64,000 nucleotides of DNA, taken from Niastella koreensis GR20-10 (GTDB lineage Bacteria; Bacteroidota; Bacteroidia; Chitinophagales; Chitinophagaceae). The notes below the pieces were generated by a model. The model saw nothing but the letters and a program-made list of their open reading frames with translations, did no database searches and was not told where the DNA came from. Positions 7,305 through 55,832 of this stretch are shown piece after piece. Each line of letters begins with the position of its first letter. Within the stretch, counting starts at the first letter, position 1. The position numbers and the translations under genes were made by a program. Location of the stretch: positions 3,782,001 through 3,846,000 of the forward strand of contig NC_016609.1 in assembly GCF_000246855.1 (NCBI RefSeq), written 5' to 3'.

Positions 7305-7427
7305 CTTTATCAACTCCGTCAACTTTATCAACCCTATCAACCTCCTACTTTCTAAGCTTCTCCTTCCCCGTTAACCTGTCAACGTGTAAACTCGTCAACC
7401 CGTCAACTGGTCAACTCGTCAACTTTA
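7305..7427. repeat. Degenerate GTCAAC-type word arrays
   Basis: Two consecutive arrays fill the gap between divergent genes. About 7305-7342 has 9-base words of the type CTTTATCAA. About 7370-7427 has seven 8-base words of the type GTCAACnn (variants include GTTAACCT, GTCAACGT, GTCAACTG). The words drift but the spacing holds. No complementary arm is visible here. The array ends about 15 bases before the prsW start codon. Confidence 0.7.
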
Positions 7428-37127: not shown

Positions 37128-37322
37128 AATTAATTTGCTAATGTGCTAATTTGCTAATGTGCCAATGAAAGCCAAAAACCAATGAGATAATTAGCTAATT
37201 CGATCATTCGATAATGGAATACAAAGCAGTCTGCTTCTGTGAATAAAAAAAGCTCATGCGTAGCATTCAAAAATGCTGTATGGCATTATCACATTAGCAA
37301 ATTATCACATTATCACATTCTT
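37128..37322. repeat. Word-array hairpin element E3 with diverged core
   Basis: On the left, four 8-base words alternate TAATTTGC and TAATGTGC, then TAATTAGC, TAATTCGA and TCATTCGA. The core (37215-37286) is a diverged relative of E1/E2 (opens GGAATACAAAGCAGTCTG, contains AAAGCTCATGCGTAGC). Right words are ATTATCAC and ATTAGCAA. The element spans the whole gap from the tandem GNAT start codon to the prfC stop. Confidence 0.85.
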
Positions 37323-45213: not shown

Positions 45214-45420
45214 TTAGCTACAAGCATCAAGCTGCAAGCGAATACAGGCTTTAAGCCGTAAGCTGTAAGCTGTAAGCTGTAAGCAAATACAGGGTTAAAG
45301 CAGAAAGCCCAAAGCCGAAAGAATATACAGCATTCCAGCCTTTGGCTTTAACCTTTTGGCTTTTACCTGCCTTCATCCTTTTTCATTTCTCATTTCTAAT
45401 TTCTCATTCTTCATTTCCCC
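45213..45420. repeat. Word-array element E6 with repeated AATACAG anchors
   Basis: Anchors AGCGAATACAGG, AGCAAATACAGGG and GAATATACAGC separate arrays of different words. Four tandem copies of GTAAGCT (7-mer) lie between the first two. After the second come AAAGCAGAAAGCCC-type words, which are complementary to the CCTTTGGCTTTAACC-type words right of the third anchor. A final CATTTCTC/CATTTCTA-type array runs to the start codon at 45422. Nothing else is seen in this 208-base gap. Confidence 0.75.
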
Positions 45421-46375: not shown

Positions 46376-47299
46376 ATGAAAAGCAGACTGTGCACTTGCC
46401 TACTCCTGTTTTCGTTCGCATTATTTCTTGCATTTGCTGCCTGCAGCAAAGCAAACCGTTCCGGCACCGATGCGGAAACGAATACTGATCCCCTGGTAGA
46501 TTCGCCCCTCAGCGGAAGCACTACCCCCACTTTACCTACCAATCCTAATTTATGTCCCAATGCGCCCAGCTATGGCGACAGCATCATATACCTGCAACCG
46601 GTAAACGGACAATACACGGTTAACCCGGTGAATAATACCGGCATAACCGGTACCTATCTTTCCTGGCCCGAAGGACTCAGCATCAATAAAAACACAGGTG
46701 TTATCAATGTCTCAAAAAGCGAAACCGGGGTACGCTACCTCGTGGGTTTTGTAAAAGATGGCACAAAGGATACCTGTATCAGCCAGCTGATTCTGGGTGG
46801 TATCACCTACATGGACAGCATTTATGTGATGGAGAAGAACGACACGCTGGCCAAACCTGTTTTCAACGCCAACCCCAACGCAGCTCCTGCCTGTGATCCC
46901 AGCGACGATACCGACTATCCCGGTAATAACGGCAATGGCAACAACAAGTGCTCGTTCGATGACGATGCGCCCGGTTCAAAAGCCAATGACCAGAAATTAC
47001 GCGTGCGCACGCTGAATGGGTACATCAACCTGAAAAAATCACTCAACGACGGACTGTTTGGTCCCAACGTAAAGAACGGCGATTCCAAAACAATAAAGAT
47101 CTTATACGCACTCAACGATAACAGTAAAAAGGCGCAGCAACAGATCTCAGTGAAGGTGATCTACTACGATAAGGTGTCGAGCATTCCGTTCTCCTTATCA
47201 AATGAAGTAGCTACCAAGCGCCTGACCATGATGGATTACCACATCGTAAACGGAAAGCCGCGGCCACCATTACTCATCATTGCCGGGCTCGCTAAATAA
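46376..47299 (+). CDS. Lipoprotein with putative Ig-like domain, unknown function
   Basis: 307 residues with a lipoprotein signal peptide (lipobox LAFAAC, Cys23) and a low-complexity Ser/Thr/Pro linker (about 28-60). A cadherin/Ig-like segment follows (about 75-135; SWPEGLSINKNTGVINVSKSETGVRYLVGFV, the usual form of putative Ig domains). A Gly/Asn/Asp-rich stretch follows (about 175-200, DYPGNNGNGNNKCSFDDDAPG), possibly metal-binding, then an unrecognised C-terminal domain. It is 17 bases upstream of the CHAT gene, so they are probably co-transcribed and may act together at the envelope. Confidence 0.8.
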   Translation: MKSRLCTCLLLFSFALFLAFAACSKANRSGTDAETNTDPLVDSPLSGSTTPTLPTNPNLCPNAPSYGDSIIYLQPVNGQYTVNPVNNTGITGTYLSWPEGLSINKNTGVINVSKSETGVRYLVGFVKDGTKDTCISQLILGGITYMDSIYVMEKNDTLAKPVFNANPNAAPACDPSDDTDYPGNNGNGNNKCSFDDDAPGSKANDQKLRVRTLNGYINLKKSLNDGLFGPNVKNGDSKTIKILYALNDNSKKAQQQISVKVIYYDKVSSIPFSLSNEVATKRLTMMDYHIVNGKPRPPLLIIAGLAK

Positions 47300-47316: not shown

Positions 47317-50154
47317 ATGGGAGAACAGGTGAAGGCAACAATACGGGGCATCGTATGGAAAGGCTGGCTGCTGCTGGCAACCCTGTTGGTTTGCTCGTAT
47401 CGTACCGGTAACCCGGCTCAGCCCTCGCCCGCCCTACTGGCGTTGTACAAAAAAGCCAGCCGGTTGTTTCATTTGCCCAACCCCACCGATGCTACCGACA
47501 GCCTGGCGATGACTGCCTACCAACAGCTGATTGCACAGCACAATAAAACCGGCGAAGTACCGGACACGATGCTGTTCTATGCCCATAAAAACCTGGGCAT
47601 CCTGCTTGATGTGCAAACCAGTTATGCAGCTGCCATTAAAGCGTATCTGCAGGCGCAACGCATCAAACAACAGCACCCGCAATGGAGCGATAGCTTATTA
47701 TACGAAATAGCCGAACACGCCGGTTCTGCCTATTATCACCTGAACAATTTTGATTCGGCCAGTTATTTTTTACACCAGGCCGAAGCCCTGGCGCAACGGT
47801 TTCCCCATATTCCTGAAAAAGAAAGGTTGTACAACGACCTCGGTGTTTTATACTACGAGAACGGCAATTACCTGCAAAGCCGCAATTACTTTACCCAGGC
47901 GCTGGACATCATCAATAAACGGCCGCCGAAAGACGCCACCTGGGTGGTAAACATCGAGAACAATATGGCAGCCGCCAGCTACAAACTGGGTCAATACCAG
48001 CAGGCCATCACCATCTACAAAACCATTTGCTCGCAAAAAGTATTTACCAGCCAGATCTTTTTAAACCTGGGACTGGCCTATAAAGCCATGGGCAATTATG
48101 CAGAGGCGCTAAAATGGTTTCACCAGGTAAATACCACTACCCTGCCGCGCGTATTTAACGAACTGGCGCATACGCATCTGTTGTTGCAGCACCCCGATTC
48201 AACCGGTTATTACCTGCAGCAGTTTGCCCGTTCCACTTCGCCCAATAAAGCGCCGCCCAACAGCATGTATACGGGTATGTATTATTTGTACCGGGGCTAC
48301 TGGCAGATTGATCAACGGCAATACAACGACGCATTAAAAAGCCTGCAACAGGCCATCATCGTTTTCAGCGGACATTTCAACAATCCCAACGTACAGGCGA
48401 ACCCCGTACAGTTTACCGGCGCCTTTACCTCCTACCGCCTCTTTGATGCGCTGTTTAAAAAGGCTGCCACGTTCGAAGCCATATACAAAGCCACCCATAC
48501 CGAAACCTGGCTGCAGGCAGCTTTACAAACATATTCCAGCGCTATCACCCTGTTGCGGTTTATTGAAAAAAGTTACGATACCGACGAGGCCAAATTATTT
48601 TTGAAGAACAACAGCCAGCAGGTGTATCAGAACGCCGTAACGGTTTGCCTACAGTTACATGCCTTACATCCCAACAAAGGCTATGCGCAGCAGGCCTTTG
48701 TAATGGCAGAACGCAACAAGGCATCGGTCATGTACAGCGGCATCACCCAAAAAGGGTTCCGCAAATTAGCCGGCATCGATCCCGCCCTGTTGCAGCAGGA
48801 ACGGAACATCAAATACAACCTGGCCCGCTTAAGCATCCGCAACGATCAAACGCAGGACAGCGCCGCACTGGTTTCACTGGCCAATGAAAAAGCGGGGTAC
48901 GAGATTCAGCTGGCGCAGGTACAGCATGCCCTGGAGCAAAACAGTTTGTATTATCAACTCAAATACCAGGAAACCTATCCCCGACCCGATTCACTGCAAC
49001 AATACCTGGGCCGTAACCAGGCGGTGATCAGCTTTTATGCAACGGGCAATACCCTTCACCTCTTTGTTATTACCCGCTCGCGGTTTCAACAGGCCGGCAT
49101 CGATTCGTTTGCTTCGCTGCAACAGGCCATTACCTATTGGTTAACGGCATTACAGCACCCCGAAAACGGCCGCCGCTTCAAGGGTGCGCCCTGGGGGCAA
49201 CAATTGTATCAGCGCCTGGTAAAACCCTTACAGGCCTTAACCGGCGATGCCACCGAATGGATCATTATCCCGGATAACATCCTGTATTACCTGCCGTTTG
49301 AATCATTACCCCGCGAAGCGGGGGGAGCCGATGCCCCGCCATTGCTGGAAACAACCGAGATCAGTTATCAGTTTTCCACCCGCTTTATTGTAGCGCAGGC
49401 GGCGCGAAAACATTCGCTCAATACCAGTTTGCAAACCCTGGCCTTTGCGCCCTTTGCGCAGGCGGGTAAACCCTTTCCGCATCCGGAATATACGTTTATG
49501 CAGCAATTACCGGCCTCTGCGCAGGAGATCGCGCATTTACCGGGACTTTCCTTTACCAATCAGCAGGCCACCAAAGAAAAGTTCCTGCAACACCTGCAGC
49601 AATACCCGGTGATACACCTGGCTACGCATGCCATTGCCGATACCGGCAACAGCGCGGCCTCCTTTATTGCCTTCTATCCGCAAACCGGGGAGCGCACCCA
49701 GGATGCATTATACCTGGAAGAACTGTATGGGTTGAATATGGAAAAAACGCAACTGATGATCATCAGCGCCTGTGAAACGGGGCACGGACAACTGGTGAAC
49801 AGCGAAGGCGTGCTGAGCCTTACGCGCGGTTTTGCCTATGCCGGTTGTGCGAGTATGGTAAACAGTTTATGGAAAGCCGATGATAATTCCACGGCAGCCA
49901 TTCTACATCAATTTCATATCTACTTACAGAAGGGTTATACAAAATCAAAAGCATTGCGGCAGGCAAAGCTCGATTACCTGCATAGCAATGCTTTATACAA
50001 AACGCCCGACTATTGGGCACATTTAATTCTCACAGGGGATAACCAGCCGTTGGTGAAAGCGGTTACCTGGTACTGGTGGTTGCTTGTTATAGGCGCCCTG
50101 GTGGCAGTGGTATTGGGAATGAGCTGGCTTAAAAGAAGAAAAAAGTCGACGTAG
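47317..50154 (+). CDS. TPR-CHAT caspase-like protease protein, membrane-anchored
   Basis: 945 residues. An N-terminal hydrophobic segment (about 13-28) precedes TPR repeats (about 30-330; for example AYYHLNNFDSASYFLHQAEALAQ and LGLAYKAMGNYAEALKWFHQV) and a helical region (about 400-560). A CHAT domain (about 600-905) has the catalytic dyad His771 (HLATHA) and Cys819 (IISACETGHG) and SEGVLSLTRGFAYAG. A C-terminal membrane helix (about 912-932) is followed by a basic tail. CHAT proteins are caspase-family proteases; in bacteria some execute defence or regulated proteolysis (for example Craspase TPR-CHAT). Next to an ECF/anti-sigma pair, proteolytic signalling is an attractive inference. Confidence 0.93.
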   Translation: MGEQVKATIRGIVWKGWLLLATLLVCSYRTGNPAQPSPALLALYKKASRLFHLPNPTDATDSLAMTAYQQLIAQHNKTGEVPDTMLFYAHKNLGILLDVQTSYAAAIKAYLQAQRIKQQHPQWSDSLLYEIAEHAGSAYYHLNNFDSASYFLHQAEALAQRFPHIPEKERLYNDLGVLYYENGNYLQSRNYFTQALDIINKRPPKDATWVVNIENNMAAASYKLGQYQQAITIYKTICSQKVFTSQIFLNLGLAYKAMGNYAEALKWFHQVNTTTLPRVFNELAHTHLLLQHPDSTGYYLQQFARSTSPNKAPPNSMYTGMYYLYRGYWQIDQRQYNDALKSLQQAIIVFSGHFNNPNVQANPVQFTGAFTSYRLFDALFKKAATFEAIYKATHTETWLQAALQTYSSAITLLRFIEKSYDTDEAKLFLKNNSQQVYQNAVTVCLQLHALHPNKGYAQQAFVMAERNKASVMYSGITQKGFRKLAGIDPALLQQERNIKYNLARLSIRNDQTQDSAALVSLANEKAGYEIQLAQVQHALEQNSLYYQLKYQETYPRPDSLQQYLGRNQAVISFYATGNTLHLFVITRSRFQQAGIDSFASLQQAITYWLTALQHPENGRRFKGAPWGQQLYQRLVKPLQALTGDATEWIIIPDNILYYLPFESLPREAGGADAPPLLETTEISYQFSTRFIVAQAARKHSLNTSLQTLAFAPFAQAGKPFPHPEYTFMQQLPASAQEIAHLPGLSFTNQQATKEKFLQHLQQYPVIHLATHAIADTGNSAASFIAFYPQTGERTQDALYLEELYGLNMEKTQLMIISACETGHGQLVNSEGVLSLTRGFAYAGCASMVNSLWKADDNSTAAILHQFHIYLQKGYTKSKALRQAKLDYLHSNALYKTPDYWAHLILTGDNQPLVKAVTWYWWLLVIGALVAVVLGMSWLKRRKKST

Positions 50155-50563
50155 TTTACACAAGTATACGGATTAAAATTGCTCTGATGTGTGTACTCCG
50201 GACTAATGCAGATACTGCGTTATCCTTTGAGGTCAAGACGTCGACTTTTAGAGTTGTCCTCCTGTAACAGGATGGAATTATTTTATTATTAGTAGCATTT
50301 GTATTTTACAGTGTATGCTTAAGGCAGAACGCTTGTTCCCCGAATTTCACCCCCCCGCCAATTAGCGGGGACTACAAAAATCGGGAGGTAGCCTTTAGCC
50401 TTTGGCTTTGAGCCTTAAGCTTAAAAAGGTAACCGGACTACCAACAAGCGGGTCCGGTTACCGAAAACTAAATCATTGTGTGCAAATCAGGTGCAGGGCA
50501 TCAAGAGTGACGCCCAACCATTTAGAGTTTAGGGTTAAACAACGCATAAGAGCGTCATAAAAA
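50155..50563. other. Intergenic stretch with hairpins, no gene seen
   Basis: A small stem CCCCGC (50353-50358) / GCGGGG (50365-50370) lies about 200 bases after the CHAT stop. A short TAGCCTTT-type word array spans 50391-50421. A perfect 11-base inverted repeat, GGTAACCGGAC (50428-50438) / GTCCGGTTACC (50452-50462), follows. No open frame with coding character was found. Confidence 0.6.
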
Positions 50564-50960
50564 ATTCGTGAGAAATGAACCATCCAGGTTTCTCTGTCGT
50601 ACACTGCAATGAGCGACTCAGGTTTCCGATGTTATGATCCGTTCCTCACGAATGCAAAGTATTATTCGTGAAGATGGAACCATCCAGGTTTCTCTGCCGT
50701 AACCGCAATGAGCTACTCAGGTTTCCGATATTATGATCCGGTCCTCACGAATGTTAAGCATAATCCGTGAAGATGGAACCATCCAGGTTTCTCTGTTGTA
50801 GTTCCGCCAGCTGGCGGACTACCCAGGTTTCCGATGTTATGATTCAGATCCTCACGAATGCGTAGGGATAATCCGTGAAGATGGAACCATCCAGGTTTCT
50901 CTGTAGTAACCACAATGAGCTACTCAGGTTTCCGATATTATGATTCAGATCTTCACGGGT
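50564..50960. repeat. Four tandem hairpin repeats of about 100 bases
   Basis: Units start at 50564, 50664, 50763 and 50871. Each begins ATTCGTGA or ATCCGTGA and ends with the complementary TCACGAAT or TCACGGGT. Inside each are GAACCATCCAGGTTTCTCTG and, later, CAGGTTTCCGATnTTATGAT. The centre varies: in units 1, 2 and 4 it is a CGCAATGAG-like loop, in unit 3 a palindrome (CCGCCAGCTGGCGG). The outer stems stay paired although their sequences differ. Could be structured RNA genes or DNA hairpins; strand unknown. Confidence 0.9.
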
Positions 50961-51057
50961 GAAAGTATCATTTAAAAGAGCTGGTTCTATTAATTAGTAA
51001 AAGCTGAGGAAAGGGATGTAACCGCGTAACCGGACTTTTTTTAAAAAATATTTCCTT

Positions 51058-51834
51058 TTAGCGGTTTGCCTTGATTTTCAATAATTCAAGATCCATCTTT
51101 CCCACCTGCATCGCCTGTTGGTGATACAAATGGTTTTTATCAGCCCGTATTTGTTGTAACAACGCAATAGCCTGCACGGGATGGTTATTGGCCAGGTTAC
51201 TCATAGCCAGGTAAAACTGGGCTTCGTCCCGGAAGTAATCATCACCCGTTTGGGAATTGTTACGCAATACCTGTTCAAACAATTGGTTTGCTGCTGCAAA
51301 GTTTTTTAGCTGCAGGTGGGCCATAGCGGCCAGGAATAAGGCTTTATTATCAGATAAGGAAGAAGACGAATTAGCGGCGGCAATTACTCCGTTCCAGTTC
51401 TGGTTACGGTATGCCTGCTCAAGATCAGTGATGGTTGCCTGTCCCCTGGAAGTTGACAGGTTGTACGCAATAAACGTTTTATCGTACACGTGTGTTGCAC
51501 TTACCGTAAAATATTTATAGGCAACGGTGCCAACGATCAATGCTACAACCGCTGCAGCAACCCGCATGAACGGACGTACTATGCTGCGCACATTTTTTCT
51601 GTTAGCCGGCAGTAATACTTCAACCGGTTGTATGGTCCTGAAATTTTCTTTCACCGCAGCCACCTGGTCGTACAATGCCGCATACTCCACTGCTTCAACA
51701 GCCAGTTGCAGGTATTGCCATTGCTTACGCACTTCCAGGTCGGTATTGATCAATTCTTCCACTTCGCGCATTTCCCTTTCTTCCAGGGTCCTGTCGAAAT
51801 AATTGATCAGTAAATGTTCGTTGCGGTCTTCCAT
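51058..51834 (-). CDS. Anti-sigma factor-like membrane protein with TPR-like periplasmic domain
   Basis: 258 residues. N-terminal cytoplasmic part (1-85; LLINYFDRTLEEREMREVEELINTD) resembles the anti-sigma domain of Bacteroidota ECF partners, without a zinc motif. One membrane helix (about 90-108) follows. The C-terminal domain (about 130-255) has TPR-like helices (ALFLAAMAHLQLKNFAAANQLFEQVL, FYLAMSNLANNHPVQAIALLQQI). It follows the ECF gene by seven bases. The TPR part could sense periplasmic partners, for example the TPR-containing CHAT protein nearby; that is inference. Confidence 0.82.
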   Translation of the reverse strand: MEDRNEHLLINYFDRTLEEREMREVEELINTDLEVRKQWQYLQLAVEAVEYAALYDQVAAVKENFRTIQPVEVLLPANRKNVRSIVRPFMRVAAAVVALIVGTVAYKYFTVSATHVYDKTFIAYNLSTSRGQATITDLEQAYRNQNWNGVIAAANSSSSLSDNKALFLAAMAHLQLKNFAAANQLFEQVLRNNSQTGDDYFRDEAQFYLAMSNLANNHPVQAIALLQQIRADKNHLYHQQAMQVGKMDLELLKIKANR

Positions 51835-51841
51835 AAAGTTA

Positions 51842-52441
51842 TCACAGTTTGTTCACCAGCCGGGCAATTACGGGGTTTTGTTTTATCATTTCCGTAAGTG
51901 ATTGCAGGCATTTATATTTTTTATTTCGTACCACCTGTTCATTCTCGTATGGCAGGTGATGCAGAATTTCTTTCATCGACATATTCTCGTAATAGAAAAG
52001 GGTAAGCAGTTTTTTACAGGACTCACCCAGTTTCCCCAGCACTTCCTGGAACTGTTGATTCACTTCCCGGTTTGCCATGTGCTGGCTGATATCCGGTTCA
52101 GTAACATCGCGGCTGTTCTCAAACGCTTTCTCCCGCACTTCGCTCCGTTCACGCTTTTTCAATTCATTCAACCACAGGTGACGGGCAATGGCAGCTAAAA
52201 AGGTCTTTACACTGGATTCACCGCGGAACCTGTCTTTTTTCACCGAATCGATGAAGGTGACCACCGTTTCCTGGAAGATGTCTTCTGCATCTGCCGGGTT
52301 ACCGCTGTTGGCCAGAATAAAAGCCTGGATCGTTTGTGAATACTGCTGATAAATGAAATAAATGGCGTTGTTCAGCTGATCCCCTCTTCTGATGGCGGTT
52401 AGTAACTCCGCATCAGCATACGTCGTACTGCCTTTTATCAT
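51842..52441 (-). CDS. ECF RNA polymerase sigma factor
   Basis: 199 residues from ATG 52441 (MIKGSTTYADAELL); an upstream in-frame GTG is less likely. Sigma region 2 is visible at about 15-90 (NAIYFIYQQYSQTIQAFILANSGNPADAEDIFQETVVTFIDSV), then region 4 at about 125-185 (LGESCKKLLTLFYYENMSMKEILHHLPYENEQVVRNKKYKCLQSL). It is expressed ahead of its membrane anti-sigma partner in a two-gene operon, convergent with the CHAT gene. The motif GTCCGGTTAC lies about 30 bases upstream of the start and recurs around the locus. Confidence 0.93.
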   Translation of the reverse strand: MIKGSTTYADAELLTAIRRGDQLNNAIYFIYQQYSQTIQAFILANSGNPADAEDIFQETVVTFIDSVKKDRFRGESSVKTFLAAIARHLWLNELKKRERSEVREKAFENSRDVTEPDISQHMANREVNQQFQEVLGKLGESCKKLLTLFYYENMSMKEILHHLPYENEQVVRNKKYKCLQSLTEMIKQNPVIARLVNKL

Positions 52442-53248
52442 AGTAATAGTAAACGCCGGGGTTGTTTTTGTAACCGGACTGATCACTTTTTATTGAATTT
52501 TTTAGATGTCCCTTAAGAAGGGCGCAAAAATAACGAAGGAAGAAGCAGAATCTGTTAGAAATCTGTTCAAACTTTGTAGAATAACCCAGCAAGTTGATAC
52601 AGGTCAATAATTTCCCGGACTACACCATACCTATTTACCCTTATATTAACCTTAACACTAATAAGTCACCATCCCTCCGCTTTCTTTTTGCCGGCAGCCC
52701 CTTTATCCGCTTTTATCAAAAACGCCGGTTTATGAACTAACCCTTACCCATATTCTATGATTTCTGGCTTCAAAACCTGTCATTTTAACCCGATTCTGCC
52801 CGAAAAAAAATATTTTTCTTTTGAATAAAGGTGAACATACCTGTTGTATTCCCATATATAAACCGCTTTCTTTCAGAAACCCCTACGAAATTAGTCCCCT
52901 AAACAAGTAGGGAACAAAACCACCTTTATTCCGGATTTTGCCAAAAAGGTGAAAATCGAAAATCAAAAGTGCAAAACATGAACTGATTGATTCTTAAAAT
53001 AATAACGGGCTAATTAACTTGCATTAGGAAAGTTGAAGCCGGCGCCCGGCCTTGGAAGCGGGACAATTTGTAGCGCCCTGTCCATATCATTGAATGTTTT
53101 GCTGAAGTAGTAAGCGGGTGGCTGCAGCTACAGTACTTACCTGTTAAAAACAAGCGGGAGGCAATGCAGTATAGATGAATGTGGTTGCGGAGGCATGCAA
53201 CAAGTGACGGAATGACACTTATCCGCCCCATTACATTTAAACAGCGGC
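52442..53248. other. Intergenic region between ECF operon and HTH cluster
   Basis: About 800 bases without a credible gene; minus-strand open frames here lack coding character. Two weak hairpins are visible: CCCTAC (52881-52886) / GTAGGG (52907-52912), and CACCTTT (52921-52927) / AAAGGTG (52945-52951). TACATTTA (53232-53239), one base from the -7 consensus, lies nine bases before the HTH gene. Promoters for both divergent units must lie here. Confidence 0.5.
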
Positions 53249-55700: not shown

Positions 55701-55832
55701 GTTATTGCCTGGGTATTGCCTAAGTATTGTCTGGGTATTGTCTGAGTATTGCCTTGCGCACTAGTATATCCAGGCAGTCTCCAGGCGGTCTGTTTACAGT
55801 ATCCAGGCAATATCCCTACCATTACCCTACCA
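55701..55832. repeat. Word-array hairpin with 11-base words
   Basis: Left arm: five 11-base words of the GTATTGCCTGG / GTATTGTCTGA type. Right arm: 11-base words of the complementary ATCCAGGCAAT / CTCCAGGCGGT type. A short TGCGCACTAGT loop separates them. Same architecture as E5/E6 with a different word and period. Confidence 0.75.

Follow-up and report, generated by a model that had tools for sequence, protein, structure and literature searches.

The window analyzed here is a 64,000-nucleotide stretch of the genome of Niastella koreensis GR20-10 (9.03 Mb, one contig), a culturable soil bacterium. On the minus strand, a gene for an ECF sigma factor (51842 to 52441; TIGR02937 over the cut-off) begins with an ATG at 52441, while the listed ORF reaches to a GTG at 52486. 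It is followed on the same strand by a gene for a TPR protein (51058 to 51834) that, based on family and hydropathy scans, has one TM-like segment (approximately amino acids 84 to 111) and is a putative anti-sigma factor. Convergent to these genes, the plus strand carries a gene for a TPR-CHAT protein with a C-terminal TM-like segment (47317 to 50154; family and hydropathy scans). The N-terminus of this protein is hydrophobic, resembles a signal peptide by eye, and is below the hydropathy cut-off. Upstream of the CHAT gene and on the same strand lies a gene for a protein that by eye is lipoprotein-like (46376 to 47299), for which no Pfam or NCBIfam family was found; this gene order is the same in relatives. 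No Cas family was detected among the four neighbors scanned. Between the TPR and CHAT genes lies a tandem array of hairpin units, and the order ECF sigma gene, TPR gene, array, and convergent TPR-CHAT and lipoprotein-like genes was found in 10 of 10 genomes of the genus, including one split genome in which it holds across two contigs. In the G008 metagenome assembly, the CHAT gene is present as two ORFs (L034, 5089 to 7296 and 7333 to 7923). At the end of the CHAT gene in the window, an inverted repeat is formed by AAAAAGTCGACGT (50140 to 50152) and ACGTCGACTTTT (50238 to 50249), the arms of which are ~85 bases apart; similar pairs are located at the same place in loci L154 and L157 from other genera, and this repeat may serve as a bidirectional terminator whose loop is long.

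The array consists of four units (50561 to 50965) with spacings of 100, 99, and 108 bases and a score of 492 in the tandem-repeat scan (TRF), which confirms the four tandem ~100-base hairpin repeats described in a sequence-only reading of this DNA. That reading numbered the units 1 to 4 in plus-strand order, while the order of transcription on the minus strand is the reverse. Based on unit bounds, covariance-model matches, and folds, the minus-strand hairpin units are located, from first to last transcribed, at 50868 to 50965, 50760 to 50864, 50661 to 50758, and 50561 to 50659, the last being of a terminal type. The end stems that had been described are present in the sequence, as is the change on both sides of the end stem in unit 4, and so are the paired centers GTCG/CGAC in unit 1 and GTAG/CTAC in unit 4. 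The single GGAACC ascribed to each unit does not hold for unit 1, which has TGAACC instead. The center of unit 3 is a palindrome, as had been stated. This palindrome, CCGCCAGCTGGCGG, is a dispersed repeat with 45 sites in the genome, and its copy at 50804 to 50817 forms the tip of the apical stem in the second-transcribed unit; the same palindrome forms tips in loci L028 and L035. The sense strand of the array contains stops in all three frames, and a tRNA/tmRNA search gave no match at the array. Elsewhere in the window, short tandem repeats of 7 to 8 and 11/22 bases are located at 7369 to 7424, 37131 to 37167, 45248 to 45284, and 55703 to 55754.

On the minus strand, each of the four units in the window folds into one long hairpin with z scores of −2.9 to −4.5, compared to −1.1 to −2.2 on the plus strand. 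To extend this analysis, we aligned 45 of the 46 units identified in the 10 genomes; the excluded unit is cut at a contig end in L026 and by eye is identical over its length to the last unit of L027. The z score was below −2 in 45 of 45 units on the minus strand and in 30 of 45 on the opposite strand, and the sense strand was the more stable strand in 32 of 45 units. Whole predicted transcripts, folded for 8 arrays not including the split one, are 335 to 750 nt long and had z scores of −3.5 to −9.9. Of 1,349 cells in the named structure, 94.5% form a pair, and sliding the partner by 1 to 3 columns reduced pairing to 40 to 47%. All 10 arrays are from one genus-level group, and relatedness inflates some of the covariation controls. 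Two-sided changes were present at 12 of 30 pairs (shuffled mean, 9.5; 12 of 500 shuffles reached or matched the observed count), and the covariation score was 0.290 compared to 0.155 after shuffling, with none of 500 shuffles reaching the observed value.

The types of pairs identify the strand. Outside the apical stem, we counted 956 Watson-Crick, 102 G-U, 2 A-C, and 19 other cells, with 38 of the 102 G-U cells falling at one pair. Because a G-U pair on one strand is an A-C mismatch on the other, the excess of G-U over A-C cells indicates that selection acted on the RNA of the minus strand; for instance, what reads as a C/A mismatch in the plus-strand end stem of unit 3 becomes a G-U pair in the minus-strand RNA. 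This result, together with the better fold of the minus strand in all four units of the window, makes the plus strand, on which the sequence-only reading was based, the less likely one. In the apical stems, the strand bias is weak (196 Watson-Crick, 21 G-U, 13 A-C, and 40 other cells). The loop strands GGAAACCTG and CAGAGAAACCTG are nearly invariant across the aligned units, while the tips vary.

Upstream of the array on the minus strand, we identified a predicted ECF promoter (50995 to 51023) consisting of a −35 box GGTTACA and a −10 box TTTACTA separated by 15 nt. A two-box promoter that matches the array promoter precedes the sigma gene (52447 to 52475), which predicts that the sigma factor would be autoregulated. 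In ECF −35 boxes, an AAC is often present on one of the strands. Allowing at most one mismatch, all 10 genomes carry the motif GGTTACR-N15-TTTACTA upstream of both the array and the sigma gene; the spacing between the boxes was 15 every time, and one base is off in the leader promoter of L032. The exact motif with a spacing of 15 occurs at three sites in the N. koreensis genome, two of which are at this locus. The third (L100), as well as a fourth match with a spacing of 13 (L097), was judged to have arisen by chance because the surrounding sequence looks coding by eye. In 220 kb of fetched loci, we found 36 matches with at most one mismatch on both strands, of which 35 were located before a sigma gene or after a TPR gene. 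The 36th is an exact match before the lipoprotein-CHAT operon of G011 (L161, 1522 to 1550). An exact two-box promoter also precedes this operon in G129 (L205, 1710 to 1738), and the distribution of the promoter matches suggests that the whole module is one regulon. In the window, no match with at most two mismatches was found before the CHAT operon. The −10 box of the sigma gene ends 5 bases before the ATG (52441 to 52475), and the sigma mRNA may therefore be leaderless or nearly so.

Between the predicted promoter and the first hairpin lies a conserved 5′ leader (50966 to 50994, minus strand; ATTAATAGAACCAGCTCTTTTAAAT...), with transcription predicted to start a few bases past the −10 box. 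The leader is nearly identical across the loci of the genus, with short deletions in L028 and L034. At the other end of the array, a run of six T residues directly after the last stem (50559 to 50564, minus strand) is predicted to be part of an intrinsic terminator. Nine of the 10 arrays have a run of 6 to 8 T residues after the last unit, while L035 has only 4. Thus, as would be expected of an ECF-sigma-dependent small RNA, a predicted promoter of the cognate sigma factor precedes the array in all 10 genomes, and a predicted intrinsic terminator follows it in 9 of the 10 arrays. In the window, the predicted RNA would be about 430 nt long. Between the array and the CHAT gene, we observed a hairpin formed by GGTAACCGGAC and GTCCGGTTACC (50428 to 50462), the arms of which include most of the sigma −35 box; a similar hairpin is present in L074.

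A DNA search of 59 genomes detected the array in N. koreensis, in each of the 9 other genomes of its genus, and in none of the 49 further genomes; the carriers are named as Niastella and Longitalea. Using a covariance model built from the 45 aligned units, we identified 46 units in 10 of 394 genomes of the family, all from that genus and with one locus each; these 394 genomes were drawn from a larger group, and the stricter filters used may have lost weak matches. The number of units per array varies from 3 to 7, and the array that is split over two contig ends (L026 and L027) has 6, a number that is uncertain since two of them are possibly the same unit. A scan of the genome_contigs collection with a 22-base pattern identified species of the genus plus two single matches, with about one chance match expected in 257 Gb by our estimate. 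Both were considered chance matches, i.e., a single copy in a gammaproteobacterial MAG (L043; 17.9 bits, E of 0.062 over the 93 kb searched) and a single copy in a Thermoclostridium MAG (L051; 20.7 bits, E of 0.012 over the 93 kb searched). The array is therefore a real feature far beyond chance, with homologs in all nine other genomes of the genus. The RNA does not belong to a cataloged Rfam family: Rfam gave no match at gathering score in the window, and for 50200 to 51060 with E values up to 5, it gave two sub-threshold matches, SmY and SOX2OT_exon4. In the literature searched, in which coverage of subscription journals was thin and an earlier description may exist, we found no description of this RNA.

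Arms and tips of the hairpins differ in how they relate to one another. Among the 45 apical segments, 40 different sequences occur. The nearest apical segment is in the same genome for 31.5 of 45 units (shuffled labels: mean, 3.9; maximum, 11.5), compared to 11.7 of 45 for the arms (mean, 4.0; maximum, 11.3); fractional counts arise from ties. Conversely, for terminal units, the closest arms are those of terminal units from other genomes in 9.5 of 10 cases, compared to 2.0 of 10 for the tips. These patterns support that the arms hold a fixed place along the array and that the tips undergo exchange and homogenization within genomes. Compared to shuffles of the same segment, 25 of the 45 apical segments have a better fold than 95% of them and 20 do not. 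We also considered a CRISPR-like array serving the TPR-CHAT protein and rejected it, as its variable part is an apical stem that largely pairs with itself and is homogenized within genomes, and no Cas protein was found among the four neighbors scanned.

The promoter shared by the sigma gene and the array, together with the T-run, makes a terminated noncoding RNA in the sigma factor's own regulon the most likely product of the array, and we consider it highly probable from these sequence features that the array is transcribed as such an RNA. The suggestion that the repeats are a tandem array of structured RNAs thus gained support from the homologs, from covariation that persisted with more sequences, from the conserved position of the array, and from the predicted promoter and terminator; overall, the sequence-only interpretation is partly supported. 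Overall, our favored explanation, which we regard as probable, is that the array specifies one minus-strand RNA that is controlled by the sigma factor and acts by multivalent protein binding. The TM-like segments of the TPR and CHAT proteins suggest an envelope-sensing anti-sigma factor and, possibly, an exported protease. In the mechanism we propose, envelope stress would act on the membrane-bound TPR protein to free the sigma factor, with the TPR-CHAT protein perhaps serving as a protease in this release. The freed sigma factor would bind GGTTACR-N15-TTTACTA and transcribe its own operon as well as the RNA, and the last hairpin would terminate the transcript. Every hairpin would present the internal-loop motif AUAUCGGAAACCUG/CAGAGAAACCUG and, since this motif is the same in each hairpin, one transcript would offer 3 to 7 near-identical sites. 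Multivalent binding to these sites might titrate or assemble an RNA-binding protein, which is the most likely action and a guess that goes beyond what the sequence can prove; titration specifically is a tentative proposal. Because the genome has 12 matches to RRM (RRM_1), an RRM protein is a candidate partner. If the CHAT protein is exported, the RNA would not be its cofactor, a role that we consider unlikely in that case.

The predicted RNA resembles known regulatory RNAs in several respects. Like the titrating RNAs CsrB/RsmZ and CrcZ, it would be a single transcript that is controlled by a regulator and contains one binding motif in many copies, and as in CsrB, this motif is highly repeated (46 units in 10 genomes, with near-invariant loop columns). 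The CsrB motif is a GGA hairpin loop and that of CrcZ is A-rich; the motif of the array differs from both, and its hairpins are about 100 nt long and combine an internal loop that is fixed with tips that vary. RybB and MicA of enterobacteria are SigmaE-dependent small RNAs that are single and short with one seed. The array RNA would likewise belong to an envelope-type ECF sigma regulon, but it has 3 to 7 tandem 100-nt hairpins instead of one short RNA. To our knowledge, few small RNAs are understood in this phylum. FopS comprises 14 paralogous sRNA genes in Bacteroides and is described with RbpB (PMC11697453); the array shares with FopS/GibS-RbpB the presence in Bacteroidota, a multicopy RNA motif, and RRM candidates, but is one tandem transcript rather than a set of paralogous genes. 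The type III-E CRISPR system Csx29-Csx30-CASP-sigma provides an example of a sigma inhibitor being acted on by a TPR-CHAT protease (PMC10028731). Similarly, the array locus combines a TPR-CHAT protein, a putative sigma inhibitor, and an ECF sigma factor with an RNA at the locus; compared to type III-E, it is without CRISPR-like repeats and without Cas proteins among the neighbors scanned, and unlike Csx29, its CHAT protein has a C-terminal TM-like segment and may be exported. We suggest that the array represents a structured RNA family that is new and whose predicted anatomy is unusually complete, i.e., promoter, leader, repeated domain, terminator, and regulator, and that is tied to an uncharacterized module of TPR-CHAT protein, TPR protein, and ECF sigma factor. 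The repeated motif lends itself as bait to recover an RNA-binding protein, and the link between the sigma factor and the RNA is directly testable.

The main rival to protein binding is pairing with mRNA. In this scenario, which we regard as possible and somewhat unlikely, the RNA would be a sigma-dependent antisense small RNA whose unpaired leader or loops pair with and repress mRNAs for envelope proteins, the hairpins mainly providing stability and dosage. The sigma promoter before the RNA, the membrane-type partner protein, and the leader, which is well conserved in the genus and the start of which is partly kept elsewhere, are in agreement with this idea, as is the repression of susC-like mRNAs in Bacteroides by FopS sRNAs (PMC11697453). 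However, a seed would not need 3 to 7 large hairpins. Moreover, 9 of the 10 genomes contain an exact 13-nt complement of the leader, which in 8 of these is confined to the array locus, and the two sites elsewhere are both in G008; exact 15-nt complements of the conserved 3′ loop strand were found only within the arrays, in 9 of 10 genomes. Long exact antisense targets in the 10 genomes were therefore rejected, while short seeds of 7 to 9 nt are beyond the reach of these searches.

The array lies downstream of the TPR gene on its strand and between convergent genes, and it ends in a terminator-like unit; accordingly, it might be an element in the 3′ untranslated region of the sigma/anti-sigma operon, or else an insulator or terminator block, with no role as a free RNA. 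We consider this improbable because all 10 genomes have promoter boxes after the TPR gene and ahead of the first hairpin, the T-run is on the last unit only, and loci L160 and L161 have the CHAT gene directly after the TPR gene, so that no such block is needed there. Least probable is a mobile or recombination element (REP/MITE or attC-like hairpins) or a functionless satellite: tandem repeats homogenized internally and a dispersed palindrome in one apical stem would fit, but the single locus per genome, the G-U asymmetry and preserved pairing, and the absence of the array from matches in plasmid, phage, and viral searches argue against it, and an integron attC or REP/MITE was rejected for want of dispersed copies and recombination context. 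With one locus per genome, no dispersed unit copies, and a clear RNA-strand asymmetry, the "recombination hairpins" alternative of the sequence-only reading gained no support.

The locus of sigma and TPR genes convergent to a CHAT gene is more widespread than the array, with 17 of the 23 matching genomes viewed through flanks of up to 1.5 kb only. Among 18 non-genus loci scanned, 7 have a promoter match with at most two mismatches after the TPR gene; 5 of these matches precede a noncoding stretch (L075, L083, L139, L140, and L141) and 2 are inside or before an ORF on the same strand (L147 and L149). We also analyzed nine other-genus loci with more flank, which were not chosen at random: most were included since earlier scans had shown such a stretch, G182 is a genus mate of G107, and G205 and G011 are close loci without the stretch. 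Six of the nine (L153 to L158) have the promoter with at most one mismatch, L159 has a poorer version recognized by eye only, and L160 and L161, in which the CHAT gene directly follows the TPR gene, lack it. The stretches after the promoter in L153 to L158 are noncoding and G-poor, fold no better than shuffles (z scores of −0.2 to +3.0), and contain, to varying degrees, repeats of the ATCC and GAAA types. The presence of a structured protein site is therefore not a general rule. By eye, a 45-nt tandem repeat is present in L139/L154. The start of the leader is recognizable in some other genera.

Because the AUCC/GAAACC patterns were picked after reading L075, L139, and L141, the motif counts are partly post hoc, and they were mixed. 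In an enrichment test of six other-genus regions, L140 had no enrichment, L077 was enriched for ATCC only, and L075 was not enriched for GA3-5CC. L153 was enriched for ATCC (3 of 1,000 shuffles) and TCC..GAAA (21 of 1,000) and not for GAAACC-type patterns (518 and 283 of 1,000), while the two Niastella/Longitalea arrays tested, L073 and L074, were enriched for GAAACC-type patterns and not for ATCC or TCC..GAAA. These mixed counts fail to establish homology between the bodies of the RNA in Niastella and the stretches in the other genera, which share only position, promoter, and leader start. It is a doubtful, speculative idea that a repeat-rich noncoding RNA is a recurring output of CHAT-linked ECF sigma systems in the family, in which G-poor, unfolded stretches with AUCC...GAAA-type motifs in several genera would have the same multivalent function as the tandem hairpins, with tips swapped and homogenized per genome, in Niastella/Longitalea. 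If so, a multivalent RNA would mediate the action of a sigma factor triggered by a protease. In the other-genus loci L081, L082, L086, L087, L088, L090, and L096, by eye, promoter-like boxes of this type after the TPR gene precede small lipoprotein-like genes rather than an RNA.
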